From: a virus
Length of the DNA stretch: 64,000 bases
Direction: 5' to 3' (one strand)
Virus record (IMG/VR): IMGVR_UViG_3300035180_002714
Coordinates: 1 to 64,000 of that record
The translations under genes and the position numbers were made by a program. Below, one piece after another: positions 959 to 56,603 of this stretch; positions within the stretch are counted from its first letter, which is position 1, and every line of letters starts with the position of its first letter. The notes under the pieces were generated by a model. That model saw only the letters and a list, made by a program, of their open reading frames with translations. It did not search any database and was not told the origin of the DNA.

Positions 959-3900
959 CTAGGTTCTCGGTGTCTTGATGGCCAAGACGTTGTTGCGATA
1001 GGCCAGAAGGATCGCGTCCCAATCGCTTCGGGATTGGGAGAAGCTGGTCGAGGTCAGCCCCGTCACCGCAGGTGAGTCGAGCCCCGTGATGTTGGGCGGC
1101 ACTGCGTCCGGGAGGTCCTGATACACGATGCGGCGGATGCGCGAGAAGTACCGTGCGCCCACGCTATGTGCATGCCCGAATGCGGGGACCTCTCCCTCAC
1201 CTGCGGAGTTGTAGAACACGATGTATTCATCGAGCGTGCAGATAGGCCGCCAGTTGTAGCGCATGGCTGCGTCTCGACTCTCGAAACAGGCGCTAGAGAA
1301 CGCGGTTGGAACTAGCTCTCGGTTAGCGTTGTTTCCGCCCAGGTTATGGGCCACGCGTGTCACAGAGCCGACCGACGTTTGGTTCTTGATGGCCAACACA
1401 GACAAAATCTGTGCGTCAAGGTCTGCCAGCGCCGCCTTGGCGATCGTCAACGGTGGTGTGAGTGTTGCGATAGCCGCTTCCGCTTCCGCGGTCGAGATTT
1501 CCTTGACCAGAGACTGCAGTGCATTGGGATTGAGATTGTCGTCCAACGGCGAGTTCAGCGTGGTAGACGACGCACCAAACGAAGACGTGTTCTGTTTGAT
1601 GATTCCTAGATGAACATCAATCTGCGTTTGTAGCGTCGTGACCTGTATGGCCAACGGGGTCCGTTTGGCTAGCAGTGTCGCGTAGTCCTGTGTCGCTTGC
1701 ACTACAGCGTCATCCGTCGCGGCGTCCGGCCCGTTGACGTAGATAGGTTCGGGTGATGCGCCGGGGACCTTGGCAGCGAATGCCAAGATCTTCCGGAAGT
1801 CGAAGGATGCGTCCTTACCGTAGAGCGGCTGGGCCCCGTAGAACAAGTTCTGGTAGTAGGCCTCGGCCTTGGGAAACGACTGCAGGATCTTGCTGACGTC
1901 GCGAATGGGTTCTTCAGGCGCTGCGCCGCGCGCTGTCGCGTCATTCCTCGAGAACTCTTCGTTCAAGAGTTGAAACATCTCCTGAATCTGACGTCCGTAA
2001 GAGAAGGAGAGCGTAGTGCCGCGCCGACCGTCGTGTGACATCGACTGCTGAACCGTCGTGACGTAGACGAACAGGTCCACGCGAGACGCGCGTTGATCCA
2101 GAATCACCGCTGGAAAGCCGGGGACGACGTAGGGGTTCCACGAGATGGAAGCGGAACCCGTTCGCTTGGCGTAGCGTTCGCGGAAGTACTCGAACTTCGC
2201 GTAGAGCTTGTAGACGGTGTCGGTATCCGTCTGCGTGGCGTCGAAGGCTGCAGGCGTCGGCGTCGGGGGTGTCGGAGCTGCCGGTGCCGGTTGGTTGGAT
2301 GTTGCGGCTTGTGGTGTTGCAGGCGCAGGCGCTGCAGGAGGCAATGCTTGCCCCGCGGTCACATACTCCCACGGGCCCGCCTTCATGTAGGGCGCAGGAT
2401 TAACGAAGTTGGTAGGTCCCGGAAACCAGAGTTCGAAGTGCAAGTGCATCAACTTGGCTTCGTCGCGTGGGGAGTACCCGACGATCCCGAGTGGTGTACC
2501 TGCGGTGACACGCTGTCCCGATGCAGCCCTTTGCGTGGGCTCCATATACATGGAAGACATGTGTGTATAGTACGTGCAGCACTTCAACGGACCGTGGTCG
2601 ATAACAATCGTGTAACCGACCGGCGTTTGACCAGCAGACCATACAACACCATCATGTGCTGCCACGACGGTCACGCCGTTGGGCATGACGAAGCCGCCAC
2701 CCTTGGACCGATTGGGCGTATTCTTCGTCCACGGGTCTGTCGCTTTGTGTTCGAAAAAAAGGTCGAGCCCGGGGTGAACCACACCACGTTCTTTGCCGGG
2801 TGTCGGGTCAAACTCGTGCCCGATAACCGGCTTCCGTCCTTCGAACATCGCGACGGGCCACACCCAACGTCCCGGTAGCGGCAGCGTCGGGTTGGTGTTG
2901 GCCGTCTCGCCAGGCGTTCGAATCGCAGGCGTCGGGAAGTGTGGCTGCGGTGCGGGCGTTGCCCCGGTCTGCGCCGGCGCTGGCGGTGTTGGAGGAATCC
3001 CGCCCACAGGTGTTGGGTTGATGTGGTTCTCCTGGGCACTCAGGAAGAACATCCACGGCGGGATGTCGCGACGGTCCATCACCGGACCCTTGAAGAACTC
3101 CTCGGGGTAGAGGAGGAAGTTCTTCGAGTTGTAGGCGGGGGACGCGTGACGCTCCTTCTCGTAGAGGTCGACCTCCTCGGGGTATCCGATGGCCAGCGCA
3201 TCCAGGATGGTCTGCTTCATCGCGGCGCCCTGCGTGTTCAGGAGCCGGTTGACGGTGCCGTCATTGAAGTAGAGGCGCGTGGGCTGCGTCGCATAGTTCT
3301 CCTCGTACGTCATGTTGAGGAGCTGTGACGGGAAGACGGTGTTGCACGCTGGCGGGATGCTGAACAAGCTCTGTGGCTTGACGAAGTAGTTGGGGATGCG
3401 CTTGGGCTTGGTCTTGCGGCTGTCGAGGCTCAGCGTCGGGACCCACTTCTTCGCGTTCGCCTTGGCCGTCGCGCTCTCGAGCGTGTCTCCGTACTTGATC
3501 GGCGCCTTCGTGACGCTGTCGATGGCAACACCGTTGACGAGCGCGATCTGGTGACCGTTCACGAGGCCCGTGATCAACGTGCCATCGAACGTACGAAGCT
3601 GGTTCCCGGTGACCGTGAGAAGTTGGTCCGTCCAGCCGGGTGCCGGGGCGAGCGTGTGCTCGTTGAAGTTCGTGGGCTGGATGAGGCTCGTTGCCAGGTC
3701 GACGGTGACCAGCGGCATCGACGGGATCATCGCGATCTCGGTCAAGAGCGTCTGAATGACGGTCTCGAGCATGTCCCAGATCGAGCCTGCGTTTTGAACC
3801 GGAGGGATGAGGTTCTTGACGATCGTGCTGACGGCCGAGACGCTTTGAATCGCCTTGAGCGCGGGGAAGATGTTGTCGCTGAACGCAGAAACTTCGTCGA

Positions 3901-4573
3901 AGAACGGCGACGCGACGAACTTGTTGAGGAAGTTGGTCAGCCGTGCCCAGCGTGCAAAGAAGTTGGATGCGGGGATGGCTTGGTGATCGGCGGGGACGCG
4001 CACGTCGAGCATTCCGCGCACGGTGTTGTAGAGGAAGTCAAAGGGGCGCTTGATGAAGTCGACCTTCGCGTCTCCGACCTCGAGCAACCCTTGGGTGAAC
4101 AGCGCGAGGGGATAGACCAGGTGTGAGGAGGGCGTCGACAGGTTGGTGACGCCCTGGGCGGGGTTGGTCGCATCTCCAACGAGATCATCGAACGTGTTCA
4201 GGAAGTGAACCGTCAGCTGTGTGTAGATTGCAATCTGGTTCACGGCTGTGAACATGATCGACCGGCCTGCACCAGTGTTGCGGTAGCCCCACCCGGTGAT
4301 CTCCCCTTCGCCGAACAGACGGAACGCCGGCGCGACGCCGGGTACGACGTCACAGTCATCGAGGTAGAACACAGCGACCTGCACACGGTCTTCAGCCCCG
4401 AGACGCGTCAACGTCGGGTCTGCGGTCATCTCGATCTGCATCTCGGGGACTTGCCAGACGCCATAACGCATCGAGACGGACTTCGCCGGCACTTCGATGC
4501 CGTTGATATAGACGATGAATGCAGCCTGACGCGGCGCACTGGCAGAGAACGTGGTCTTGGAAGCAGTGGTCAT
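959..4573 (-). CDS. Large tail protein with M23 peptidase domain
   Basis: 1204 aa from ATG 4573, which overlaps the upstream stop as ATGA; an in-frame start at 4621 would overlap the neighbour further and lacks this junction. Residues ~1-130 resemble baseplate or tail-hub N-terminal domains. A Pro/Ala-rich linker (~535-575) leads to a zinc endopeptidase domain of the M23/LytM type: H-P-G-L-D near residue 599 and H-L-H-F-E-L near 708 are the metal-ligand motifs. A second Pro/Ala/Thr linker and ~430 further residues follow. M23 domains cleave peptidoglycan cross-bridges, so this is probably a tail-tip lysin that opens the wall during DNA entry. It follows the tape measure by two genes, the usual place for distal tail proteins. 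Confidence 0.85.
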   Translation of the reverse strand: MTTASKTTFSASAPRQAAFIVYINGIEVPAKSVSMRYGVWQVPEMQIEMTADPTLTRLGAEDRVQVAVFYLDDCDVVPGVAPAFRLFGEGEITGWGYRNTGAGRSIMFTAVNQIAIYTQLTVHFLNTFDDLVGDATNPAQGVTNLSTPSSHLVYPLALFTQGLLEVGDAKVDFIKRPFDFLYNTVRGMLDVRVPADHQAIPASNFFARWARLTNFLNKFVASPFFDEVSAFSDNIFPALKAIQSVSAVSTIVKNLIPPVQNAGSIWDMLETVIQTLLTEIAMIPSMPLVTVDLATSLIQPTNFNEHTLAPAPGWTDQLLTVTGNQLRTFDGTLITGLVNGHQIALVNGVAIDSVTKAPIKYGDTLESATAKANAKKWVPTLSLDSRKTKPKRIPNYFVKPQSLFSIPPACNTVFPSQLLNMTYEENYATQPTRLYFNDGTVNRLLNTQGAAMKQTILDALAIGYPEEVDLYEKERHASPAYNSKNFLLYPEEFFKGPVMDRRDIPPWMFFLSAQENHINPTPVGGIPPTPPAPAQTGATPAPQPHFPTPAIRTPGETANTNPTLPLPGRWVWPVAMFEGRKPVIGHEFDPTPGKERGVVHPGLDLFFEHKATDPWTKNTPNRSKGGGFVMPNGVTVVAAHDGVVWSAGQTPVGYTIVIDHGPLKCCTYYTHMSSMYMEPTQRAASGQRVTAGTPLGIVGYSPRDEAKLMHLHFELWFPGPTNFVNPAPYMKAGPWEYVTAGQALPPAAPAPATPQAATSNQPAPAAPTPPTPTPAAFDATQTDTDTVYKLYAKFEYFRERYAKRTGSASISWNPYVVPGFPAVILDQRASRVDLFVYVTTVQQSMSHDGRRGTTLSFSYGRQIQEMFQLLNEEFSRNDATARGAAPEEPIRDVSKILQSFPKAEAYYQNLFYGAQPLYGKDASFDFRKILAFAAKVPGASPEPIYVNGPDAATDDAVVQATQDYATLLAKRTPLAIQVTTLQTQIDVHLGIIKQNTSSFGASSTTLNSPLDDNLNPNALQSLVKEISTAEAEAAIATLTPPLTIAKAALADLDAQILSVLAIKNQTSVGSVTRVAHNLGGNNANRELVPTAFSSACFESRDAAMRYNWRPICTLDEYIVFYNSAGEGEVPAFGHAHSVGARYFSRIRRIVYQDLPDAVPPNITGLDSPAVTGLTSTSFSQSRSDWDAILLAYRNNVLAIKTPRT

Positions 4574-5013
4574 GCGATCAACATCTGGGTTGCGAGACAC
4601 ACGGTCGCGGCCAACGCGCACGTACGGTATCGAGGATATGGCGCCATTGCGTAGAGCCGGATCAATTCGACATAAGACTGTGGAATAGCGGGGACCTCAC
4701 CGAGCGCATCGATTGCGGGCCCGATCAAGTAGCGCTGCAAACGCATGCTTCCATCGATGTCAAGAAAGCGACGACGCTCACACACGTTCGACTCAGGAAC
4801 GTCTGCAGGAAGCGTGATCAGTTTGTTCAGCACCGCGCTGAGTTCGGTCTCGAAGGCCATCTGAAAGACGATCCGTGCGCCTTTCTTCAGGTCGTTCGGA
4901 TCCACGACGGCATACAAGAACCGCTGCCGCAGTTGCTCGAGCGGGTAGGACGGAAGCGGCAACAGGAGCTGCTTCTCGAAGAGGGACGCGGTTCCGTTCC
5001 AACAGGTGGTCAT
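4570..5013 (-). CDS. Unknown tail-module protein
   Basis: 147 aa, no motif recognised. It is a helical, mildly hydrophobic protein rich in Leu and Ala, lying 3 nt after the 373-aa tail gene and overlapping the M23 protein start (ATGA). The position between the tape measure and the hub/lysin suggests a distal-tail or baseplate component. There is no signal peptide or clear membrane segment apart from a C-terminal hydrophobic stretch (ALAATVCLATQMLIA). Confidence 0.8.
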   Translation of the reverse strand: MTTCWNGTASLFEKQLLLPLPSYPLEQLRQRFLYAVVDPNDLKKGARIVFQMAFETELSAVLNKLITLPADVPESNVCERRRFLDIDGSMRLQRYLIGPAIDALGEVPAIPQSYVELIRLYAMAPYPRYRTCALAATVCLATQMLIA

Positions 5014-6140: not shown

Positions 6141-9100
6141 CTAAAATCTCGACTGTTGGCTGGAGTTGTTGAGTACTTGCTTGAGGGTGGTGACCGACTC
6201 TTGGAAGTCCTTCACCGACGACGAGAACAACACCGTGCTGTCCGCCGTGAGTTGTCCGATGTCCGACGAGCTGGCGTCGCCCTTGGCAACCTTGTCACGC
6301 ATCTCCTCGACTGCGGAGATCTGATCGTCGATAGCCTGTGCGGAGCGGTCGGTGCCGCCGCCGGAGATCTCTTTTGTCTTGGTGACGCCACCAACTTCCG
6401 AGATGACTTTCTGGATTGCTGCGTCTCGATCAGCACCCTTGGGCTTGGCCCTCGCCGCCAGCAGCTTCTTGTGGAGCGCCGGAGATGTGTCTTCGAGGTT
6501 TTTCATCTGCGTGTCCGTCAACCCTTCGACGGCGTCGACCGCGAACTTAGCGTCAGCAAGCCCCTTGTCCCCCACCTTCTCCGACAATGTCTGGAGGAAC
6601 TTCTTCTGGGTGGCACCTTCGAGCGTCATCTCCAGCGCGCCTTCGATTGCTTCGACGCCTTCTCCCGCTTCCTTCGGACTCGCGCCTGTCGTCACGGTCT
6701 TGATGAGGGCTTTACGCGTGTCCTCATCCATATGGCCCATCTTCTCTTCAGCGTCTTCTTTGAGTGCGCTGAACTTGTCACCGTATTCCCCTTGCATGGC
6801 CGTGATGATCGCGTTGGCCTTGTCTTTCTCTGCCGGGGTCGAATTGGCTGCAACGGTGGCGTACGCAGCCGCAAGTGTAAGCATGTCCTTGCCGCGCTTG
6901 GCGAGGTTGCCGTCCTTGTCACGCTCAACGTCTGCCGCACCGAACGTCGCCTTCAGACTCGCCCGCGTCTTCTCGTCGATGGAGATTTCCTCAGAGGTCT
7001 TGTTGAACCACCCGTACTTGGTACCCGTGAGTCCGGCCTTGCGGTACAGCGCCTTGATAGCCTTCTCGTGACCTTCTCGAGAGCGCTTCCAGTCCACACC
7101 GCCGATCGCCTCTTGCACGTCCTTTGCCTTCATCAGTGTTTCGATGTGGCCCTTGTTACCGCCGCGCATGATCTCACGCGTCAGCATGGCGTTGACGGTG
7201 GGCTTGTTGGCCTCGTACTTCTGCGCCGCGTCGCTATCGGAAAAGCCCTGCGACTTGTACATCTCGATGCCCGCTTTACGTAGTTCGCTAGCGCCTACCG
7301 CCGACGCACTGTCTACACCGCTAGCCTTCAGATCGTCGAGGCTCGAACGCAACGTGGTCACAGCCGCCTGCAGGCCCTTGTGTACGTTGAAGTCCTTGTG
7401 TTGGGTGTCTTGCCCCGAGGTCTGAAGCTCGGAGTAGGCTGCCATCGCCTTCTCGCGCGTCATCGCCTCACCGCGTGTGACCGCTTGACCCGCCTCGCTC
7501 ACGTCACGCACGCGTGTAACGGCGTCGCCGACGTTGCCGAACGACGCAAACGGGTGCCAGCCGCCGAAGCTGCCCCGTGAATGGCTTGCGATCTCGACGA
7601 ACCGGTTCTCATCACTCTCGCCCGTGAGGCCAAGCCAGCTAACCATGCGGTTCATCTGCCGGTCCGCGTGCCCGCCAAGACCCTGGGTCGTGCCGATACG
7701 GTCCATGGGGCTCTCGCCAGCGCCTTCGCCGTATTGTCGTCCGAAGCGACGGAGGCCCGCTCGTGCCATGCCACGTTCGCCTTCGGTACGCGCCATCTCA
7801 CCTTCGCTGTAGCGATCGATAAGCTCGCCGCGCCCTGCAGCCGCCTCGTCTTCGTGAACCCGCTCGAAGTGTTCCGAGATCGACCGGAAGGGTGATGAGA
7901 TGGCCTCACTCACGCCCGCACCAAACCGCCCGATCGCACGGCGTGCTCGCGTACCGAGCCCAGGCGTCCGGTACTGCTCGCGACGCGCACGATCTTCATC
8001 GGCGGCATCGCGACGACGGACCTTGAGCTGATCGACCTGTGCGTCCCAGAACTCACGGCTCTCACCCATCTTCGCCATCGTGCGCGATTCGGTCTCCGAC
8101 ATCCCCATCGCACGGAAGCCTACCGCGAGGTCCGCACCATGGCCGATCTTCTGCTGGAGCGCCTGCGCTTGGCGGTACGACATCAGCTGCATCTCGAGCG
8201 GGCTGAGCTTCTGAGCGATCTGGTCCGTGAACTCCTGGGTGCGGTTGGCGAACTCGAGGTTGCCCGAGACGCCGATCTCGCGCCGCTTGGTCGCCGCCAT
8301 CTGCGAGACCTCCTGCATCGAAAGGCCCTGTGCGCGCCGATAGAGGTTCGGATCGACGGTCAGTGCGCCGTGTTTGTCCCGTGTGAGTGACGCCGCGAGG
8401 TAACGACCGTCGTCCATCGCACCGAGCTGCGCCTTCGCCAGGATCTGTGCGACGCCTTGGTGACCGCCAGCGCGCGCCATCTGCAGATCGTTGAGCGCTC
8501 CCGTCGACCCCGCGATGTTTGCTAGACCTGCGCCTGCCTGTCCCGCCATCACACCCGTCGCACCTGCAAGGCCCATCTGTTGGGCCATGCCTGCGCCCAT
8601 CTGACCGTACTGACCCATCTCCGCCTGGGAAACACCGGCCATGCGTGCGAACGCCGCACGGTTCGCAACAGCGCCTGCTTGCGCCGCGAGGCCTTGGAAG
8701 CCCATCGTCCGCATCTCGCCGAGCGAATGGATGGCGTCACGCACATCCGGGTCGCCGGTGATCTTCATCAGCACCTTGACCGCCTTGGAGATCTCCTTGA
8801 CCTTCGCAACGAGCTGGTCCGGTGACTGCGCGCCCGTCAGGAGTCCTTGCTGCCCGGATAGCTGCATGATCTTCATCGCGTCCTGGGAGTTGAACCCCGT
8901 GCGCTCGAAGTCATAGTCACGCTGCATGTGTCGGAGACCTGTCGCAGTCTGACGTGCCGCTGTCGGGTCCATCCCTTGACCCGTCATCATGTTCAAGTTC
9001 GAACCTGACACCATGAACGGTGACGTCATCTGCTGAATCTGTCGTCCACGTGCAAAGTCCTGTGTGACGTTGCCCGTCATCACGCCCGACACAGCTCCGC

Positions 9101-9767
9101 CAATCTTGCCGCCGAGCCACGACCCTGCCATCGTGCCAAGCGGACCCAGTGCCGACCCCAATGCGCCGCCGATCACACTGCCGCCAACACCCATCACGCC
9201 TTCGGTGACGCCTGCCGCCATACTCATCGCGCTTGATTGCGCGTGTTGCATCATTTGCAAGTTGCGCATTGCAGGCGATGCGAAGTGTGCCTGCGGCATC
9301 GTGGGTGCGAACGGGTTGAAGATCGAAGGCATCCGCGGAGCGCCGCCGCCTGCGAAGCCGCCACCAGCAAACGCGCCGCCGCCTGCGAATCCACCGCCTC
9401 CATAGCCGCCCCCGCCGTTCCCGCCACTGAACCCGCCGCCGACCGGCGGTGCCATGAAGGGGTTCATCGCGCCCATGCCGACCATCGCGCTCACCGACGG
9501 CGTCGGAGCTGACGGTGGCGGCTGGTAGCGCGTGACCTGTGCAGCCTGCAGCGTCTGCTGCACCATGTTGTCGTGGCGTTGCAACGCCTGGAGTGCCGCC
9601 TCACCGGGGTGCATCACGGGCGGTGGTGGGGGTGGTGCTTGGAACTGCTGACCCGCGCCGCCCATCGCTTGGGCTTGCGGCATCGGCAGCAATCCAAGGT
9701 TGAATTGCATCGCCGAGAAGCCCGACATCATCTGGCGGATGGTGTCGTTCGACTGCTGGTCTGCCAT
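6141..9767 (-). CDS. Tape measure protein (probable)
   Basis: 1208 aa, the largest gene of the tail operon, placed directly after the frameshifted chaperone pair as in long-tailed phages. The N-terminus is Met/Gln/Pro-rich, then strongly Gly-rich (~105-150). It is followed by a glycine-zipper hydrophobic stretch with repeated G-x3-G (~200-235) like the membrane-active segments of tape measures. The rest is predicted mostly alpha-helical and charged. Using the known rule of about 1.5 A of tail per residue, a tail near 180 nm would be expected. No lytic domain is visible inside it; the M23 domain is on the separate gene at 959-4573. Identity rests on size, composition and synteny. Confidence 0.8.
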   Translation of the reverse strand: MADQQSNDTIRQMMSGFSAMQFNLGLLPMPQAQAMGGAGQQFQAPPPPPPVMHPGEAALQALQRHDNMVQQTLQAAQVTRYQPPPSAPTPSVSAMVGMGAMNPFMAPPVGGGFSGGNGGGGYGGGGFAGGGAFAGGGFAGGGAPRMPSIFNPFAPTMPQAHFASPAMRNLQMMQHAQSSAMSMAAGVTEGVMGVGGSVIGGALGSALGPLGTMAGSWLGGKIGGAVSGVMTGNVTQDFARGRQIQQMTSPFMVSGSNLNMMTGQGMDPTAARQTATGLRHMQRDYDFERTGFNSQDAMKIMQLSGQQGLLTGAQSPDQLVAKVKEISKAVKVLMKITGDPDVRDAIHSLGEMRTMGFQGLAAQAGAVANRAAFARMAGVSQAEMGQYGQMGAGMAQQMGLAGATGVMAGQAGAGLANIAGSTGALNDLQMARAGGHQGVAQILAKAQLGAMDDGRYLAASLTRDKHGALTVDPNLYRRAQGLSMQEVSQMAATKRREIGVSGNLEFANRTQEFTDQIAQKLSPLEMQLMSYRQAQALQQKIGHGADLAVGFRAMGMSETESRTMAKMGESREFWDAQVDQLKVRRRDAADEDRARREQYRTPGLGTRARRAIGRFGAGVSEAISSPFRSISEHFERVHEDEAAAGRGELIDRYSEGEMARTEGERGMARAGLRRFGRQYGEGAGESPMDRIGTTQGLGGHADRQMNRMVSWLGLTGESDENRFVEIASHSRGSFGGWHPFASFGNVGDAVTRVRDVSEAGQAVTRGEAMTREKAMAAYSELQTSGQDTQHKDFNVHKGLQAAVTTLRSSLDDLKASGVDSASAVGASELRKAGIEMYKSQGFSDSDAAQKYEANKPTVNAMLTREIMRGGNKGHIETLMKAKDVQEAIGGVDWKRSREGHEKAIKALYRKAGLTGTKYGWFNKTSEEISIDEKTRASLKATFGAADVERDKDGNLAKRGKDMLTLAAAYATVAANSTPAEKDKANAIITAMQGEYGDKFSALKEDAEEKMGHMDEDTRKALIKTVTTGASPKEAGEGVEAIEGALEMTLEGATQKKFLQTLSEKVGDKGLADAKFAVDAVEGLTDTQMKNLEDTSPALHKKLLAARAKPKGADRDAAIQKVISEVGGVTKTKEISGGGTDRSAQAIDDQISAVEEMRDKVAKGDASSSDIGQLTADSTVLFSSSVKDFQESVTTLKQVLNNSSQQSRF

Positions 9768-9795
9768 TTGGGGTTATTGTAGCGTATTCCAGCAG

Positions 9796-10784
9796 TTACT
9801 TGGCATTCTTCGGGTTTTGGCGATCGTAGAACTCACCCATCCGGTTCAGCCGCTCGATCAGCCGCTCGTCATGCTCACGCTTCGCGACGATCTCTGCTTG
9901 GGCAGCACGGCGCCGCGCGACCTTTCGCTTGAGGACTTCGGGGTCGTACGTCTCTTGGAAGACCTCGGCTGCGTACTCCGCAACGATCCCGCCGAACGCT
10001 TTTCCAGCATCCACATTGAACACGCGCGCGATCATTTTGGCGATCGCATCGACATGAGACACGCGCTCCTGGCGCTCCCGGAAGACCATCTCGCGCATCA
10101 CGCGATCCTCAATAGAACCGTAGGGCGCCAGATGCATGCCGCGCGAGAACAACACCGCGCGTGCGTTGCCTCCCGGGCGACCTAGAAATTTTCGATGGCG
10201 CCCTCCTCGAGGACGGTGCTGATCATACGGTCGAACTTGGTGAGCTTGGTGATGAGCAGCCGCATCGCCGGATCCGACAGGTTCTCGACGTAGCTCAAGC
10301 GGTCGAAGAAGGACTTTTCGATGGCGTCGTGCTTGCTGCCCCGGGGCAGGTGAGTGAACGCGTCGTCGGCGAAGCGCTCGAGCGACGCCGCCAACAGCAA
10401 GCGTGCCAGCAGCTCGCTGTAGTGCACCTCGTACGTCAGGCGCTGGGCTTCGATCTGCTCTTGGGCGCGCTTCGTGTCGCGCGAGTTGCGCGTGCGAAAG
10501 CGGGCCTTGATGGACTTCGTGATCGCGACGTCCTCAGCGTAGTAGCCCTTGAGAAGGACGGCGTCGATGATCTCGGCAGCCTTGACCTTGGTGACGCCGA
10601 TCTCCTTGAGACGCTCTTCGTAGGAGACCATCGGCTTGAGGGTCGCCTCGTCTTGCTGGACGGCCTCCTCGAGCTTTTGCTCGGCGTGGTCGAGCGCGTC
10701 CTTGGTCGGAGAGGTGCCTGCCTTGGGCAGATCGACCACGGGGCGCGAGAAGTCACCGATGCGAGCGTCATCCGTAGTTGGCAT
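9796..10784 (-). CDS. Tail assembly chaperone fusion (G-T type) made by -1 frameshift
   Basis: The frame after the G stop is open from before 10185 to 9796. It is joined in frame to G if ribosomes slip by -1 on A-AAT-TTC at 10191-10185, which immediately precedes the G TAG. The product would be about 329 aa: 200 aa of G sequence with its last codons read on the slip site, then 129 aa from the T frame (basic and helical, ending DRQNPKNAK). In lambda-like tails G and GT chaperones bind the tape measure and recruit tail tube subunits. A separate GTG start at 10155 exists but has no good ribosome site, which favours frameshifting. Confidence 0.75.
10182..10784 (-). CDS. Tail assembly chaperone G-like protein
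   Basis: 200 aa from ATG 10784; an upstream TTG (10799) is possible but weaker. The protein is acidic and helical with coiled-coil-like stretches (ALDHAEQKLEEAVQQDEATL). No enzyme motif is visible. It is the first gene of the tail operon, ahead of the tape measure, and its stop codon is preceded by a canonical -1 slippery heptamer, the hallmark of the G/GT pair. The divergent DinG-like gene starts at 10843, so the tail-operon promoter and the helicase promoter must share the 58 nt between them. Confidence 0.75.
   Translation of the reverse strand: MPTTDDARIGDFSRPVVDLPKAGTSPTKDALDHAEQKLEEAVQQDEATLKPMVSYEERLKEIGVTKVKAAEIIDAVLLKGYYAEDVAITKSIKARFRTRNSRDTKRAQEQIEAQRLTYEVHYSELLARLLLAASLERFADDAFTHLPRGSKHDAIEKSFFDRLSYVENLSDPAMRLLITKLTKFDRMISTVLEEGAIENF
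10185..10191 (-). promoter_or_regulatory. -1 programmed frameshift slippery heptamer AAATTTC
   Basis: Read on the minus strand, the zero-frame codons are GAA-AAT-TTC-TAG. A-AAT-TTC fits X-XXY-YYZ exactly in phase, and the stop codon follows at once. After a -1 slip the next codons are CTA-GGT-CGC, in frame with the downstream open frame to 9796. GC-rich sequence right after the site could form a stimulatory structure, but I did not fold it. Confidence 0.75.
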
Positions 10785-10842
10785 GGAATCTTGGTACAAG
10801 GAACGGACTAGGAAAGCAACCTATCGTCTTGATGTTTATCCC

Positions 10843-40283: not shown

Positions 40284-40387
40284 TAAACCTCATCCTCAAC
40301 CTGTTGGGTCTTTTGACCCGTGTCAAAGCACACACTCGAATGCGCGGCGCCGTGCGCGTCGTCAAGTACTGGAGAAAAGCATCGTGA
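40280..40387 (+). CDS. 35-aa micro-protein
   Basis: GTG start in the GTGA of the previous stop, and its own stop forms the GTGA start of the next gene. A hydrophobic N-terminus (I-N-L-I-L-N-L-L-G-L-L) is followed by a very basic tail (R-V-K...R-M-R-G-A-V-R-V-V-K). The double coupling argues it is real; it could act at the membrane. Confidence 0.55.
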   Translation: MINLILNLLGLLTRVKAHTRMRGAVRVVKYWRKAS

Positions 40388-42462
40388 CCACCGACAAGTC
40401 CCTGTCCTTCTACAAGATCGCGACCACGTCCTTTCAGTCCATCGTCAAGTCCTCGCAGGTCTTCGTCACCGACGTGGACGGTGACGTGTTGTGGGAGCGC
40501 TACCTGGCCGCGTTCCCCGAGGGCACGAACCTGACCTTCAAGAAGAAGACCGAGCACGACTGCTCGACGTGCCGGCAGTTCATCCGTCGCGCGGGCAACG
40601 TCGTCTCCGTCGACGACCAGGGTGCCGTCCGCACCGTCTGGGACGAGGCTGCCGAGAAGGCGCCGCATCCGTACAACGTCGTGACCACGGCGCTGCGCGA
40701 CGTCGTGCGCGCTGCGAGCATCTCGGACCTCTTTCGAGTCGGCCAGAAGGAGAACAGCTTCGGCGCCGCCGCGACGCGGTCGATGGACCCCGCCGGCAAG
40801 GCGCTGACCTGGAACCACCTACACACGGACGCGATCCCCAAGACGCTGCAGGCCCTGTCGCCTGACCAGGTTCGTGGCGACTACCGCACGACGGTGCAGG
40901 TCTTCACGCGTGGCCTCGTGGAGCTTGCCCCCTCGGCGCTGGATACGGTGCTCGCGCTCATCGAGGCGAACAACCTGTACCGCGGCGCCGAGCACAAGGC
41001 GGCGGTCGTGCAGTTCATGCAGGCGCAGGATGCGTTTCGAGCCATGCCGCCGTGCACGCAGGACATCTTCACGTGGACCCACGCGACCGGCCCGGCGTCG
41101 CGCTTTCGCAACACTGTGATCGGCACTCTCGTGCAAGACCTCACCGACGGCGTCGACGTCGAGCACGCCGTCAAGAGCTTCGAGACCAAGGTGGCGCCGA
41201 CCAACTACAAGCGCACGACGGCCGTCATCACGCCGGCCATGGTGAAGAAGGCGATGGAGACGATCGAGACGCTGGGCCTCGAGCCGGCACTCGAGCGCCG
41301 CTTCGCCACTATCCACGACATCTCGGTCAACGACGTGAAGTGGGTCGACGGTAGCGTCAAGCCGGCGATGAAGGGTGGCATCGGCGACGTGCTCATGCAG
41401 GCGGCGACGCCAGGTCCCGCGAACACGAAGAAGGACGAAGAGCGCGCCGAGGACATCGGGCTCGAGGCCTTCGTCGAGCGCGTGCTGCCGGAGGCGACGA
41501 GCATGGAGGTTTTGCTCAAGGGCGAGCACCTCGGCAACCTGATGTCGCTGACGGCGCCCGTGAACCCGGAGCCCAAGCAGCTGTTCCGCTGGAACAACGA
41601 CTTCGCTTGGAGCTACGGCGGCAACGTTACCGACTCGATCGCCGAGCGCGTGAAAAAGGCCGGCGGCAAGGTCGAGGGCGCGACCCTGCGCGTGTCGCTG
41701 TCGTGGTTCAACTTCGACGATCTCGACCTGCACATCCACGAGCCGGCGGGACGTGGCGTCGGCGGCCTGCGCGACCACATCTACTTCAGCAACAAGCGCG
41801 GCTCGACCGGCGGCACGCTCGACGTCGACATGAACGCGGGCGATGGCACCACGCGCGAAGCCGTCGAGAACGTCGTCTGGATGGACAAGATGCCGAGCGG
41901 TGCCTACAAGGTCGTCGTCAACAACTTCGCCAAGCGCGAGGCCAGCGATGTCGGCTTCGTGATCGAGGTGGAGTGCGGCGGCAAGCTCTCGCACTTCTCC
42001 TACAACAAGGCGGTCCGCGACAAGCAGGACATCCACGTCGTGACCCTGCACATGAAGGAGGGCCGCATCGAGAGCCTCGAGATGGGCGCCCCGGCGATCA
42101 CGGCGTCGAACATCTCCCAGACGAAGTGGGGGCTGTCGACCGAGCAGTACATCAAGGTCGACGCCGTCACGCTCTCCCCGAACTACTGGGGCGACAACGC
42201 CGTGGGCAACAAGCACACGTTCTTCGTTCTCGCAGGCGCCAGGAACGACGAACCCACGCGCGGCATCTACAACGAGTTCCTGCACCCACGCCTGGAGCCG
42301 CACCGCAAGGTCTTCGAGGTGATCGGCGACAAGACCAAGTGCCAGCCCACTGACGGGCAACTCTCGGGCTTGGGCTTCTCGTCGACGAAGCACACGAACG
42401 TGCTCGTGCGCGTCCAGCAGGGCAAGAAGCAGCGCCTGTTCAACGTCCACGTCGGTTCTTGA
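40384..42462 (+). CDS. Large YfaP-like (DUF2135-type) protein
   Basis: 692 aa, GTG start. Residues ~45-75 hold a C-S-T-C pair. The middle is helical. The region ~425-560 resembles the YfaP/DUF2135 beta-sandwich: L-R-V-S-L-S-W-F-N-F-D-D-L-D-L-H-I-H-E-P, then the acidic D-V-D-M-N-A-G-D-G segment and P-S-G-A-Y-K-V-V-V-N. Large proteins of this kind occur in several phages without known function. The biggest gene of the plus-strand accessory region. Not placed among structural genes, so a virion role is unproven. Confidence 0.65.
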   Translation: MTTDKSLSFYKIATTSFQSIVKSSQVFVTDVDGDVLWERYLAAFPEGTNLTFKKKTEHDCSTCRQFIRRAGNVVSVDDQGAVRTVWDEAAEKAPHPYNVVTTALRDVVRAASISDLFRVGQKENSFGAAATRSMDPAGKALTWNHLHTDAIPKTLQALSPDQVRGDYRTTVQVFTRGLVELAPSALDTVLALIEANNLYRGAEHKAAVVQFMQAQDAFRAMPPCTQDIFTWTHATGPASRFRNTVIGTLVQDLTDGVDVEHAVKSFETKVAPTNYKRTTAVITPAMVKKAMETIETLGLEPALERRFATIHDISVNDVKWVDGSVKPAMKGGIGDVLMQAATPGPANTKKDEERAEDIGLEAFVERVLPEATSMEVLLKGEHLGNLMSLTAPVNPEPKQLFRWNNDFAWSYGGNVTDSIAERVKKAGGKVEGATLRVSLSWFNFDDLDLHIHEPAGRGVGGLRDHIYFSNKRGSTGGTLDVDMNAGDGTTREAVENVVWMDKMPSGAYKVVVNNFAKREASDVGFVIEVECGGKLSHFSYNKAVRDKQDIHVVTLHMKEGRIESLEMGAPAITASNISQTKWGLSTEQYIKVDAVTLSPNYWGDNAVGNKHTFFVLAGARNDEPTRGIYNEFLHPRLEPHRKVFEVIGDKTKCQPTDGQLSGLGFSSTKHTNVLVRVQQGKKQRLFNVHVGS

Positions 42463-50423: not shown

Positions 50424-53400
50424 CTACGGGTTCGCGGGATTGATGATTTCAGCGATGGTCTGCCGAATCGTGAGGGTCTTCGAAGCGCCAGTGGTGATGT
50501 TGACGCTGATGAACTGCTGCGCGGTGGTGCTGTTCCAGGTCGCCATCGTGCCGGTGAGCATGTTGACGATCTGTCCGATGAGGCCGCCGGCGGCACCTGC
50601 CGTTGTGGTGCTCAAGATCGAGCAATCGGCGATCGCGGTCGCTGCTGCGCCCAATGTGCGAATGGTGAACGTGATGACGATGCTGAATTCAGCGACGGTA
50701 GCCAGGCCTGCCGTGGTCGTAAACGTCGCAACCACGCCATCACCTGTCGTGCCCGCGGTGCCGATGCGGATGGTGATGGAGTTGGTGGCAGTGCCCACGG
50801 CGGCCGACGCCCCGCGGATCGTCCAACGTAAAACCGTGCCGACTTGAAAGCCTTGTGGAGGCACCGTGATCAATGACCCGGTAAACAAGGTGAGCGTCGC
50901 AGCTGAGATGGCCTGGTCAGCAACAGAGGTCGATGCGTGCATGACGAGGCCTCCGTTGGGAGTCCACTCGAAGTACACGCCACCCTCTGTCACCGGAATC
51001 GCTTCGCCGTTGCCCAACTGGTAATAGTCCCAGTAATGCGGCTGCGACATCGCGAGCAGTCGCGTGCCGCTGTTGAGCACGCCCATCACATCGACACCGC
51101 CAAGGCCCGCAGAACCCCCGTTGAACTGATTGTTACGGGCAGCAAGCGTTGCGCTCGAGTTCGAACCGTTGAGCCGCACGCCCGGCTTGCGCACCCGGTT
51201 GATCGCGCCATCGGCCGTGATGCTGCCGCCGTTGATCATCGCGTTGATGGTCAGGACGCTGTCGGAGTTGCGGAACTCCATCGCAGCGGGGCCCCACGTC
51301 GTGCCGTGCGAGAACTGGAACATCTCGATGTTCGCGCAACACGTGTTCGCCGTCGTGTCGCCGTCCATGCGGATACACGTGCCGTTGCCCGGCACGGCTT
51401 GCACGACGTTCGAGCCGTTGACGGTGGCCGGTACGTTGATGGCTTCGCCTGCCGAGATCGTGCAGCCCGTGAGAGTCACCGTGCCGCCGCCACCCGTGTA
51501 GTTCACGAGCACGGGGTAGCCCATGTTCGTCTCGACCCAGACGTAGCCCGCGGTCGGTAGCGTGTTGGCAGCGACGGTCAAGCTCTGTGGCGTCGCCGAG
51601 AGCGTCACGGCACTTGTCATCAAGATGGCCGTGGTCACCGGACTCGGCGGGTTGTCGAGCATGCGGACACAGAACCGCTCCATCTTGAAACGCGTGCAGT
51701 CGCGGGCTTCACCGAGCGTGGCCACGACGTTCATGTCGATGCCCACCGCGAGCGCATCGTTCACGAAGAAGTCATGCCAGTGCCCGCCGTGACAAGACAG
51801 CAGTTGAAGACCGATCAGCGCGTTGTTCTGATCACCGTTGCGGCAATCGAGGGTGAGGCCCTCGATGATCGAGCCCGTGTTGGCGGCGTTGCTCGCACCA
51901 GAGACCGCGGTGATTTGGAGCAAGGGTGATGTGAACGAACCGTTCGACGTGCCCCACCAACAGATGTGGGCGCCGCCCTGGCGCGTGTAGTCACCGATGT
52001 CCGTGGTGTACGAACCCGACGGTCCCATGAGGTGGACCGCGTTGGCCGTAACCGTGAGGCCTGCGGTGACGCCGTAGCGCCCCTTGTTGACCACGGGGAA
52101 GTAGACGATGCCGCCCTTGGCCGTCTGCGCGGCGTTGATCGCGTTCTGGATGGCGGTGGTGTTGTCCGTGCCGAACGAAGTGCCTGCGGCCGATGCAGTC
52201 GTGCCTGCGTTGGCCGCGAGCGTCACCGTGCTCGAGGACGTGAACGCCGAGATAGTCGTGGTGAGCTGCCCTGCGGACGCGCCTGCACGCGCCACCGTGA
52301 TGCGCTTGCCGATGTCTTGTGCGGTGAATGGTGTGCTCGTGGCACACACGAGCGTCGCGGTGCCGGTGGTGATGGCACCATCGAACACGGTGACAAGGTC
52401 ATCGCGGGCATCGAACTCGGCCACCACGTCGTAGACCAGGCGTGACGCGATGGCGTTCTGCGGCAGCGCGATCGGATCGAGCGTCGAGTTGTCCGCTTCA
52501 TCGCCGATGAAGATGACCGCAGGTCCCGCAGGTCCCGCGGGCCCCGGTGAGCCGGTGGACCCTTGCTGACCTTGCGGACCGACCTCCCCATCGGCCCCAT
52601 CCTCACCTACGAGGAACGTGGCGACACCCGGCGCTCCCTGCGCACCCGCATTGCCAGACGTTCCCGCGGCACCCGGAGGCCCCACACCGCCGTCATCGCC
52701 ACGATCCGCATCGGTGAGGAAGATGAATCCTTGCGGGCCTTGCGCGCCTGTCGTGCCGGTGGCGCCGGGAGGTCCCGCAGCTCCGGGCGGTCCGGGATCA
52801 CCGTCGGGGCCATCTTCGCCCACGAGAAATGTCGCGACACCCTGCGGTCCGATGCCACCCGTCGCGCCGGTCGCGCCCTGCGGTCCAGCATCACCGGGCT
52901 TGCCGGGCTCGCCGTCTTGTCCGTCCTCACCGACAAGGAACGTCGCAACGCCCTGGGGTCCGATGCTACCTGTCGCCCCTGCCACGCCCTGTGGTCCCAC
53001 GTCGCCGGGCTTGCCGGGCTCGCCGTCCGCACCATCTTCGCCCACGAGAAACGTGGCGGCGCCTTGAGGCCCTTGTGCACCTGTGGACCCGGCAGCGCCC
53101 GCGGTGCCCGCAACGCCAGGCGGCCCTGGGTCACCGTCGTTGCCCGGCTCGGCCTCGAGAAAGACGGCCACACCCTGAGGGCCGATCGCGCCGGTCGTAC
53201 CCTGTGGTCCTGGATCACCCGGCTTGCCGGGTTCACCATCCGCACCGTCTTCGCCGACGAGGAACGTGGCGACACCCTGCGGGCCTGTCCCGCCGGTGGC
53301 GCCTTGAACACCCTGCGGACCTTGCGGACCAAGGTCACCGTCTTGGCCGTCTTCGCCGACGAGGAACGTGGCGACGCCCTGAGGGCCTGACGCGCCTGTG

Positions 53401-54191
53401 GTGCCCTGGATACCTTGCGGCCCCATCGGACCGAGGTCACCGTCTTGACCATCCTCGCCGACGAGGAACGTGGCGGGACCCTGCGGTCCACTCGAGCCGG
53501 TGAGACCTTGGATGCCTTGCGGTCCGGGCTCGCCATCGGCCCCTGGTTCTGCGTCGAGGAAGATCGCGGCGCCTTGTGGCCCCTGCGCACCTGTGGTGCC
53601 CGGCGTGCCCGGCGTGCCCGCGGGTCCCTGTGGACCTTCGCCACCGTCTTGACCATCGTCACCGACGAGGAAGACGGGCGCGCCCTGCGGCCCCTGTGCG
53701 CCCGTGGTGCCCTGAAGACCTTGTGGACCCTGTGGGCCGTCACCACCGTCCTGTCCGTCTTCGCCAACGAGGAAGACGGCAGGACCAACCCCACCGGACG
53801 GCCCTGTTGGTCCGATGCTGCCGGTGGTCTTGAGACCGCCTGTGGAGTCGTAGACCTTCCATCCATCGGAATCGACGATTGCCCAACCGTTGCCCGGGAT
53901 AGTGAAGTTACCCGTGATCTGGTTGATCGCAGCGGTTCCGTTGAGAAAGACCACCACGCCCGCAATGTCGATACCTGCCGTGTTGGCTAGATGAATCGAC
54001 TTGACCAATGTCGCGTTTGGATATGCGGGTGCGGTGTAGACCGTCGCAGCAACATTGCTCAACTGACCTTGAGCGAGTGTCTTGTACGTCGGTTCGCCTT
54101 GCGTAACCTCGGCACCTGCCAAGGTATACGTGATGGTTGCACCAACGCCTGCAACGCCTGCGATCGTCTCTCCGCCGGCCAGTGTCAACAT
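50424..54191 (-). CDS. Collagen-like tailspike with beta-helix (pectate-lyase-type) domain
   Basis: 1255 aa. An N-terminal beta-domain (~1-118), then ~440 residues of collagen-like G-x-y triplets (~120-565) broken at regular intervals by short F-L-V-G-E-D-G-type inserts (about 13). Next a right-handed beta-helix like pectate-lyase superfamily tailspikes: D-N-T-T-A-I-Q-N-A-I-N-A-A-Q and G-G-I-V-Y-F-P (~680-710), then many short Gly/Asn turns. A C-terminal beta-domain (~1095-1255) may trimerise. Probably binds and may cleave host surface glycans. Catalytic acids cannot be picked by eye. Confidence 0.85.
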   Translation of the reverse strand: MLTLAGGETIAGVAGVGATITYTLAGAEVTQGEPTYKTLAQGQLSNVAATVYTAPAYPNATLVKSIHLANTAGIDIAGVVVFLNGTAAINQITGNFTIPGNGWAIVDSDGWKVYDSTGGLKTTGSIGPTGPSGGVGPAVFLVGEDGQDGGDGPQGPQGLQGTTGAQGPQGAPVFLVGDDGQDGGEGPQGPAGTPGTPGTTGAQGPQGAAIFLDAEPGADGEPGPQGIQGLTGSSGPQGPATFLVGEDGQDGDLGPMGPQGIQGTTGASGPQGVATFLVGEDGQDGDLGPQGPQGVQGATGGTGPQGVATFLVGEDGADGEPGKPGDPGPQGTTGAIGPQGVAVFLEAEPGNDGDPGPPGVAGTAGAAGSTGAQGPQGAATFLVGEDGADGEPGKPGDVGPQGVAGATGSIGPQGVATFLVGEDGQDGEPGKPGDAGPQGATGATGGIGPQGVATFLVGEDGPDGDPGPPGAAGPPGATGTTGAQGPQGFIFLTDADRGDDGGVGPPGAAGTSGNAGAQGAPGVATFLVGEDGADGEVGPQGQQGSTGSPGPAGPAGPAVIFIGDEADNSTLDPIALPQNAIASRLVYDVVAEFDARDDLVTVFDGAITTGTATLVCATSTPFTAQDIGKRITVARAGASAGQLTTTISAFTSSSTVTLAANAGTTASAAGTSFGTDNTTAIQNAINAAQTAKGGIVYFPVVNKGRYGVTAGLTVTANAVHLMGPSGSYTTDIGDYTRQGGAHICWWGTSNGSFTSPLLQITAVSGASNAANTGSIIEGLTLDCRNGDQNNALIGLQLLSCHGGHWHDFFVNDALAVGIDMNVVATLGEARDCTRFKMERFCVRMLDNPPSPVTTAILMTSAVTLSATPQSLTVAANTLPTAGYVWVETNMGYPVLVNYTGGGGTVTLTGCTISAGEAINVPATVNGSNVVQAVPGNGTCIRMDGDTTANTCCANIEMFQFSHGTTWGPAAMEFRNSDSVLTINAMINGGSITADGAINRVRKPGVRLNGSNSSATLAARNNQFNGGSAGLGGVDVMGVLNSGTRLLAMSQPHYWDYYQLGNGEAIPVTEGGVYFEWTPNGGLVMHASTSVADQAISAATLTLFTGSLITVPPQGFQVGTVLRWTIRGASAAVGTATNSITIRIGTAGTTGDGVVATFTTTAGLATVAEFSIVITFTIRTLGAAATAIADCSILSTTTAGAAGGLIGQIVNMLTGTMATWNSTTAQQFISVNITTGASKTLTIRQTIAEIINPANP

Positions 54192-56603
54192 TTATCCCGC
54201 CATGAAGAAGAGGAAGCCGTAGTTCGGACGACGTGTCGGCGCCACGTACTCCGTGTCACCTGAGTCACCATCTTGTCCAGGTGGCCCAGGGGCGCCATCG
54301 ACACCGCGCGCGCCGTCCACGCCCTGGCGTCCCGGCGGTCCGTCTTGGCCGTCTTCACCATCGCTGGTGAGGAAGATGGCAGGCCCGGGAGCGCCCGCCG
54401 CGCCCGAGACCGCGGTCAACACGTAGTTGGCGTAGTAGACGGTGATGGTGTGACCGGGCCCGGTCGCGTTCGAGACCCGGACATCGAAGGTGTCACCTGG
54501 TGCGACGCCTTGGACCACGCCCGACACCGTGACCGTCCCAACCTCGGGGGTTGTGGAGGTGTGCTGGGCCACGTGCGTGGCGATCGGGCTGCCGTTCTTG
54601 TAGAGCTGGAAGGTGAGGTCTTGGTTGTTCGCGTCGCACGACAACGACAACGTGCAGATCGTCAGGTACGTCCCGGCGATGCCTGCGACCAGCGTGTCCG
54701 TGCTGAACGTGAAGCCGTTGTTGTCACCCGCCGTCCACCCCGTCGAGATCTGGTAGAACGTGCTCGCGAGCGTCATCGTCGTGACGGCCGACGCAGCGTT
54801 GACCATCTCTCCGTAGGCGGCCACGCCGGTCTGCGCGGGCGCGCCTGCGGCGCCCTGCGGTCCGATCGGACCGGGAGGTCCTTGGATGCCTTCTTGACCG
54901 TCTTCACCGACGAGAAAGACCGCAGGGCCGATCCCGCCGGTGTCGCCGGTCGCGCCTTGTGGACCCGGAGGGCCTTGCGGACCGGAGTCGCCATCCGCAC
55001 CGTCGTCGCCGACGAGGAACGTGGCGACGCCCTGGGGTCCCGACGCACCCGTGGTGCCTTGGATGCCCTGCGCACCTTGCGGACCGAGGTCGCCGTCTTG
55101 CCCATCCTCGCCGACGAGAAAGATCGGCAGGCCCTGGGGACCTGTTGCGCCAGTTGCGCCGGTGAGCCCGGTTGCACCCGGAGCGCCGGGCTCGCCGTCT
55201 TGACCGTCCTCGGCTGCGAGGAAGACCGCAGGCCCAACCGCGCCTGCGCTGCCGGTCGCACCCTGCAGGCCCTGCGCACCTTGCGGACCATCGCCGCCGT
55301 CTTGCCCGTCTTCGCCGACGAGGAAGATGGGCAGGCCCTGCGGACCCACGTTGCCGGTGACGCCCTGCGGCCCTGCGGCACCGGGTGCACCCGGCTCGCC
55401 GTCTTCACCACGCTCAGCATCGAGGAACGTGGCGACACCCTGGGGTCCCTGTGAGCCGGTGGGACCTTGCGGACCTTGTGGACCGATCTCACCGTCGGCG
55501 CCGTCTTCGCCCACGAGGAACGTGGCGACGCCTTGCGGTCCTGTCCCGCCGGTGGCGCCTGGAAGACCCTGCGGCCCCTGCGGACCATCGCCACCATCTT
55601 GGCCGTCTTCGCCGACGAGGAAGATGGGCAGGCCCTGCGGACCGCTCGAGCCCGTCGTGCCCTGCGGACCCGCGGGCCCCATCGGGCCTACGTCACCGTC
55701 GTCACCACGCTCCGCCTCGAGAAAGATCGCGGCGCCCTGCGGCCCTTGTGCGCCGGTGACGCCTTGCGGACCCGGAGGTCCGATCTCACCGTCATCACCA
55801 CGCTCGGCTTCGAGGAACGTTGCGACGCCTTGTGGACCGACCGAACCTGTGGTGCCCTGCGGGCCTGCAGGACCTTGCGGTCCATCGCCACCGTCTTGAC
55901 CGTCTTCGCCGACGAGGAAGATCGGAAGACCCTGCGGACCCACCGCGCCCGTCGTGCCTTGAACACCCTGCGCGCCCTGCGGTCCGATGTCACCGTCTTG
56001 CCCATCTTCGCCGACGAGGAACGTGGCGACGCCCTGTGGGCCACTCGAGCCCGGAAGGCCCTGCGGTCCCATCGGTCCGATCTCGCCGTCGTCACCACGC
56101 TCGGCGGCCAGGAAGATCGCGGCGCCTTGGGGCCCCTGCGATCCGGTGGTGCCTTGTGGCCCGGGAGCGCCGGGCGGACCGACGTCGCCATCTTCACCAC
56201 GCTCGGCCTCGAGAAACGTGGCAACGCCTTGTGCGCCGGTGGGGCCGAGCGGGCCTTGGATACCCTGGACGCCCGGTGGACCCTGCGGACCAAGGTCGCC
56301 GTCTTGACCGTCTTCGCCGACGAGAAACACCGCCGGACCGACAGGCCCGACGTCACCCGTGGTGCCCTGCGCGCCTGGCGCGCCTGGCGGACCGACGTCT
56401 CCGGGTTCACCGTCTTCGGCGGTGAGAAAGACGGCAGGCCCGCGAGGACCTGCATCACCCGTGGTGCCTTGGAGACCGGGTGGACCTTGAGGCCCTTCGT
56501 CACCTTCGGGGCCTTCGATGCCCGCAGGACCTGGCAGACCGGGCGCGACGTTGACGGCGTCGAACTTTCCGGTGAGCGGGTTGAAGATGAACTTGATCGC
56601 CAT
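54192..56603 (-). CDS. Collagen-like fibre with C1q/BclA-type globular domain
   Basis: 803 aa, ending 1 nt before the tailspike start. Residues ~20-585 are G-x-y collagen-like repeats with about 16 regular interruptions of the form A-T-F-L-V or A-I-F-L-E before G/A-E-x-G. A jelly-roll-like globular domain (~595-735) resembles the C1q/BclA type ([14 protein letters not shown]). A final short collagen stretch and an aromatic tip follow. Such proteins form trimeric fibrils, a likely receptor-binding or side fibre. Confidence 0.85.

Follow-up and report, generated by a model that had tools for sequence, protein, structure and literature searches.

A slippery heptamer abutting a stop codon: a candidate −1 frameshift site in a tail assembly chaperone-like gene of uncultured phages

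The 64,000-nucleotide stretch of viral DNA analyzed here (the window; positions 1 to 64,000 of IMG/VR record IMGVR_UViG_3300035180_002714) contains a minus-strand gene that very probably, at a rough probability of 0.88, makes a G/GT-type pair of tail assembly chaperones by programmed −1 ribosomal frameshifting. A putative slippery heptamer, A_AAT_TTC, runs directly into the stop codon of this gene, and the stop-adjacent slip layout is, by sequence comparison, conserved through a deep, undescribed phage lineage. This kind of signal is already known in phages, and the compact stop-adjacent design has precedents. We infer the occurrence of slippage, its rate, its stimulators, and the chaperone function of the products from the layout, conservation, and structural models described below.

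Slip site and reading frames

The following features of the window are relevant to the analysis.

10182..10784, minus strand: G-like gene, zero-frame product of 200 aa, from ATG 10784 to the stop (translation)
10185..10191, minus strand: slippery heptamer A_AAT_TTC (sequence), where AAT would become AAA and TTC would become TTT on a −1 slip
10182..10184, minus strand: zero-frame stop TAG, abutting the heptamer (sequence)
9796..10185, minus strand: T-like −1 extension, 129 codons plus stop (translation)
10202..10207, minus strand: internal Shine-Dalgarno-like AGGAGG, candidate 5' stimulator, 10 nt upstream of the heptamer (sequence)
9776..9781, minus strand: −10-like TACAAT, 8 nt ahead of the probable tape measure ATG; TACAAT or TATAAT is kept in near relatives, with a putative promoter role
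6141..9767, minus strand: 1208-aa probable tape measure protein, encoded immediately past the fusion stop (position, length, and a Gly/Ala-rich hydrophobic stretch)

The zero-frame open reading frame (ORF) ends with GAA AAT TTC TAG, so that the heptamer is in exact phase and is followed immediately by the stop, as the earlier note had reported. From position 10185, the −1 frame reads CTA GGT CGC CCG and continues open to a TAA ending at 9796. The predicted fusion is therefore 200 + 129 = 329 aa long, in agreement with the end point and approximate length given in that note, and its predicted junction peptide is ENFLGRPGGNAR. Under the proposed mechanism, normal termination would release the 200-aa protein, presumably the main product, and ribosomes slipping from AAT-TTC to AAA-TTT would read CTA in place of TAG and complete the 329-aa fusion. 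UUY codons are very shifty, ranking among the best −1 shifters in Escherichia coli, where U_UUC is the second-best tetramer when accompanied by a strong stimulator (PMC4066793). The next zero-frame stop in the window past the TAG lies about 27 codons downstream. The TTG at 10799 chosen by the ORF caller is an unlikely start for the zero-frame gene, the conserved start being ATG 10784.

The site stands out from the background of the genome. The string AAATTTCTAG is present in 1 copy in the window, compared with 0.00 expected from shuffles, and AAATTTY is found twice in the whole 158-kb record (158,425 bases). The record contains 10 strings in which an X_XXY_YYZ heptamer is followed by a stop codon; when an upstream ORF of at least 150 aa and a −1 frame of at least 60 codons were required, the site in the window was the only one that joined the two. 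Among the genes of the window, AAT accounts for 10% of the Asn codons and CTA for 4% of the Leu codons, and the retention of both, although they are rare, suggests selection. Sequencing error was ruled out because the same arrangement is present in contigs from different metagenomes.

The same fusion product would result from transcriptional slippage, with the phage or host RNA polymerase adding a base at the A4T3 run so that some mRNAs encode the fusion directly. The phage apparently encodes its own multisubunit RNA polymerase, which would fit this explanation, but the longest homopolymer run is 4 nt and two relatives have only CATTTC, with a run of 3. Furthermore, the in-phase heptamer, the Shine-Dalgarno-like element, and the stem found in relatives are ribosomal signals, and this alternative appears extremely improbable.

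Conservation of the slip site and coding selection in the −1 frame

Relatives were drawn from IMG/VR uncultured-virus records only. Ten records match the extension at 58 to 100% identity, and additional relatives are at roughly 30% identity (L031 to L034, L046/L054, L048/L056, L053, L057, and L058). After records identical or nearly so across the locus stretch were dropped, 16 distinct relatives remained. The zero-frame 200-aa product is conserved in these 16, and the Phe codon of the slip site together with the −1 continuation is present in all of them, at identities down to about 30%. The stop codon (TAG, or TAA in L046/L054 and L053) directly follows the Phe codon in 15 of the 16 and is displaced by one codon in the remaining one, L058, which reads AAT TTC TCG TAG and thus has the heptamer followed by a single sense codon and then the stop. 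AAATTTY is found in 14 of the 16 distinct relatives. The other two (L033 and L034, both at 2993-3004) carry GCATTTC; their GAG CAT TTC TAG lacks an X_XXY_YYZ heptamer and would allow only the Phe tRNA to re-pair, and their −1 extension is conserved. A search for further relatives of this heptamer-free pair returned the same two records and no others. No relatives were found in bacterial genome contigs, and tblastn against phage and plasmid collections gave nothing usable.

Among near relatives (the near group), none of the last three zero-frame codons shows any variation (0/0/0), compared with 0.23 to 0.28 per position for codons −4 to −9. Third codon positions differ freely among the relatives in which the frameshift arrangement recurs. 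Immediately downstream of the slip, codons 2 to 10 of the −1 frame vary by 0.083/0.123/0.393 at codon positions 1/2/3 in the near group, and the motif L..P....RA....R...L.P.GS is conserved straight after the slip, ahead of any start codon. On comparative grounds, the pattern in codons 2 to 10 is that of a −1 frame selected for its protein sequence, in a segment that precedes every possible start in the window.

These observations bear on whether the second ORF is instead translated as a separate protein from GTG 10155, perhaps by termination-reinitiation, an outcome that the earlier note had named as the alternative to frameshifting. The GTG does exist in the window, as codon 11 of the −1 frame, with GGGAGG 13 nt before it. 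However, independent initiation there is unlikely because coding selection on the −1 frame is already evident ahead of all possible starts, and it is a poor explanation because GTG 10155 is missing in most relatives and some have no ATG or GTG before codons 42 to 58. The first ATG or GTG of the −1 frame falls anywhere between codons 8 and 58, differing among relatives: for example, codon 30 in L010 and L015, 42 in L013, 56 in L057, and 58 in L053 and L054. The invariance of the slip-site codons in the near group, even at synonymous positions, likewise argues against two separate proteins, which we consider highly improbable.

Stimulatory elements and the adjacent stop codon

A candidate 5' stimulator of the predicted frameshift is the AGGAGG located 10 nt upstream of the heptamer, an arrangement that resembles the E. 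coli dnaX signal. GAG makes up 71% of the Glu codons here, so the presence of AGGAGG by itself says little; across 17 sequences, GARGG does not vary at this position. In the window, a ribosomal pause would probably be aided by pairing of AGGAGG with 16S rRNA, and slow decoding of the adjacent stop would perhaps add to it.

Downstream RNA folding, which the earlier note had put forward as a check on frameshifting, gave no significant structure in the window (z = 0.03 against dinucleotide shuffles; z = −0.67 against synonymous shuffles), nor was a long downstream stem detected there (p = 0.71), and an Rfam search of the window gave no match. A downstream stem was also rejected for the clade of the window as a whole (combined p = 0.66). 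Conversely, distant relatives have a strong stem: downstream structure reaches z values of −4.9 (L031), −3.6 (L032), −2.3 (L046), and −2.1 (L048), and a helix of 7 to 13 bp starts 4 to 6 nt past the heptamer, for example AGCCCCGTGGGGG/CCTCCACGGGGCT in L058. The heptamer-free slip region of L033 and L034 is also followed by a long stem. Compared with synonymous shuffles, the stem yields a Fisher combined p of about 5e-8 over five lineages (L013, L049, L051, L054, and L058). Bases pair in 81% of cells, falling to 37 to 61% when the partner is slid by 1 to 3 columns; covariation is modest, and the single-register count understates the stem because its register varies between lineages. Thus, the stem appears to be absent in the clade of the window and present elsewhere, and in the distant relatives it probably accounts for a larger share of the stimulation.

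The position of the stop codon raises the possibility of a variant of programmed −1 frameshifting with the same two products, in which the ribosome has already translocated when it slips and has tRNA-Phe in the P site and the stop in the A site; the supply of release factor would then help to set the yield. The abutment of stop and Phe codon in the window and in 15 of the 16 distinct relatives is consistent with such an event, as are L033 and L034, which can re-pair only the Phe tRNA and yet retain both the stop and the extension. In the umbravirus PEMV, moreover, changing the stop to a sense codon cut frameshifting by 72% in vitro (PMC4737148); the corresponding stop-to-sense results for BYDV conflict between constructs (PMC4737148). 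However, in L058 a sense codon separates the intact heptamer from the stop, conservation of the stop may reflect only selection against a longer short product, and in E. coli U_UUC can shift by itself where no stop adjoins it (PMC4066793). On balance, a slip with the stop already in the A site seems a tentative, rather unlikely variant. More speculative still is the proposal that the adjacent stop contributes functionally to the signal in this lineage: tRNA-Phe alone would re-pair, in the P site, during the wait for release factor, and the ratio of the two chaperones would thereby read the termination capacity of the host.

The group forms a natural comparison set in which the slip site is constant and the stimulators change, from a Shine-Dalgarno-like element without a stem in the clade of the window to a strong stem elsewhere. 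Natural variants that lack half of the heptamer, or that separate the stop from it, make the role of the abutting stop testable in bacteria. If the slip indeed takes place with the stop in the A site, the GAG CAT TTC TAG relatives would represent naturally occurring cases without a heptamer among viruses of bacteria.

Predicted products, gene neighborhood, and known systems

Sequence family searches (Pfam and PHROG) with both products and the next gene gave nothing significant. The AF2 model of the 200-aa product has a pLDDT of 79, and that of the −1 extension is all-helical with a pLDDT of 81; a fold search with the extension domain gave no match. In BFVD, the 200-aa model is closest to two uncharacterized caudoviral proteins (E = 4e-6 and 1.3e-5). 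Next come annotated tail assembly chaperones, namely that of Rhodococcus phage Finch (E = 3.9e-4) and, from Bacillus phage G, gp181 (E = 1.2e-3) and gp182 (E = 4.3e-3). In the PDB, the top hit is 2ob9, the tail assembly chaperone of HK97, but the match is weak (E = 0.16), and hhalign comparisons with the phage G and Finch chaperones are marginal. The 200-aa product is a probable tail assembly chaperone. Weak matches to baseplate hub proteins among the fold hits, together with the lack of a sequence family match, would fit a real frameshift with products of another kind, such as a different tail or baseplate assembly factor. This alternative is improbable, given that the strongest fold matches to named proteins are to tail assembly chaperones, which share both the frameshift layout and the place before the tape measure gene.

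The gene directly after the fusion stop has a counterpart in 10 relatives, 1153 to 1297 aa long, the longest being cut by the locus end. Position, size, composition, and this conserved neighbor make its 1208-aa product a probable tape measure protein. If the pair behaves like lambda gpG/gpGT, the 200-aa chaperone would coat the product of the following gene, the tape measure protein, and the fusion, being rarer, would bring in tail tube subunits via its extra C-terminal domain. The earlier note had placed the pair directly before the tape measure gene as a match to lambda G/GT. The analogy is supported by the layout, the position, and a weak fold match, but the tape measure assignment is only probable, and the gene upstream of the chaperone gene is a divergent plus-strand helicase gene. 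Lambda instead has its major tail protein gene at that place, an order that is usual for these chaperones although membership of the family does not depend on it. Lambda gpG/gpGT resembles the predicted system in that a −1 shift takes place at low level close to the 3' end of the first gene and in acting with the tape measure protein (PMC5009743); it differs in its slip site and shows no sequence similarity.

Parallels are also found in phage G gp181/gp182 (JN638751) and Finch gp46/gp47 (MG962366). Both pairs carry the annotation tail assembly chaperone, with the longer member assembled from two coding pieces, and both are followed by a tape measure gene. The first gene of phage G (L064:1783-1792) ends with TTA AAA AAC TAG, the heptamer A_AAA_AAC abutting the stop. 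Phage G thus shares with the window nested products, a frame shift late in the first gene, a stop abutting the heptamer, Leu as the first −1 residue, a tape measure gene (gp183) next, and a fold match to the 200-aa product. Unlike the window, it has another heptamer, same-strand genes upstream, and no clear sequence similarity. In Finch, a phage with a tail sheath, the frameshift-joined pair also precedes the tape measure gene and also shows a fold match, whereas its heptamer, of the G_GGA_AAA type, is separated from the stop by one sense codon.

Slip sites that abut UAG are also known from the polymerase frameshifts of luteo-, diantho-, and umbraviruses (BYDV, RCNMV, and GRV, the last with AAAUUUU-UAG), where a stem follows a few nucleotides later (PMC4737148). 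The AAATTTT TAG of relative L031 is the same string as the GRV-type AAAUUUU-UAG; however, these cases are in a polymerase gene of eukaryotic RNA viruses and are alike in working without kinship. A few bacterial dnaX genes are thought to carry a stop directly after the shift site (PMC5009743). In phage chaperone data sets, the distance from slip site to stop averages 26 to 36 nt (PMC10885494), which places zero spacing at the short end. The stop-adjacent design, described in the earlier note as unusually compact, is accordingly uncommon but not unique.

The window's phage and its relatives look like contractile-tailed phages. The record contains a sheath-like gene (105-108 kb) and, elsewhere, a hub/lysozyme match, a large terminase, and large tail fibers; a sheath match is present in the records of 10 of the 16 relatives. 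The predicted frameshift supplies a supported function, tail assembly chaperone and, by position, tape measure, in large uncultured contractile-tailed phages whose proteins fall outside known families.

Several other features of the record were noted. Shortly before the chaperone ATG (10799-10784, minus strand) lies TTGTACCA, which is kept in near relatives and also precedes the ATG of an RNA polymerase gene at 137674; as a promoter word it was rejected as too weak (3 copies in 158 kb versus 1.1 expected). Both TTGTACCA and the TACAAT/TATAAT in the 9781-9765 region occur without a Shine-Dalgarno sequence, and leaderless transcripts are a possible explanation. Two proteins matching phage RNA polymerase beta-subunit families (127970-129802 and 132266-137674 of the record, L019), together with a sigma-factor-like protein (202-954 of the window), suggest phage-encoded transcription. 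A 692-aa plus-strand protein (40384-42462) matches phrog_1735, a family without known function, with an E value of 1e-230. The second gene past the one for the probable tape measure protein encodes a 1220-aa minus-strand protein (959-4621) with an M23 peptidase domain, perhaps a tail hub or tip peptidase. Finally, adjacent minus-strand proteins of 1255 and 803 aa (50424-56603) match collagen-like and tail fiber families.
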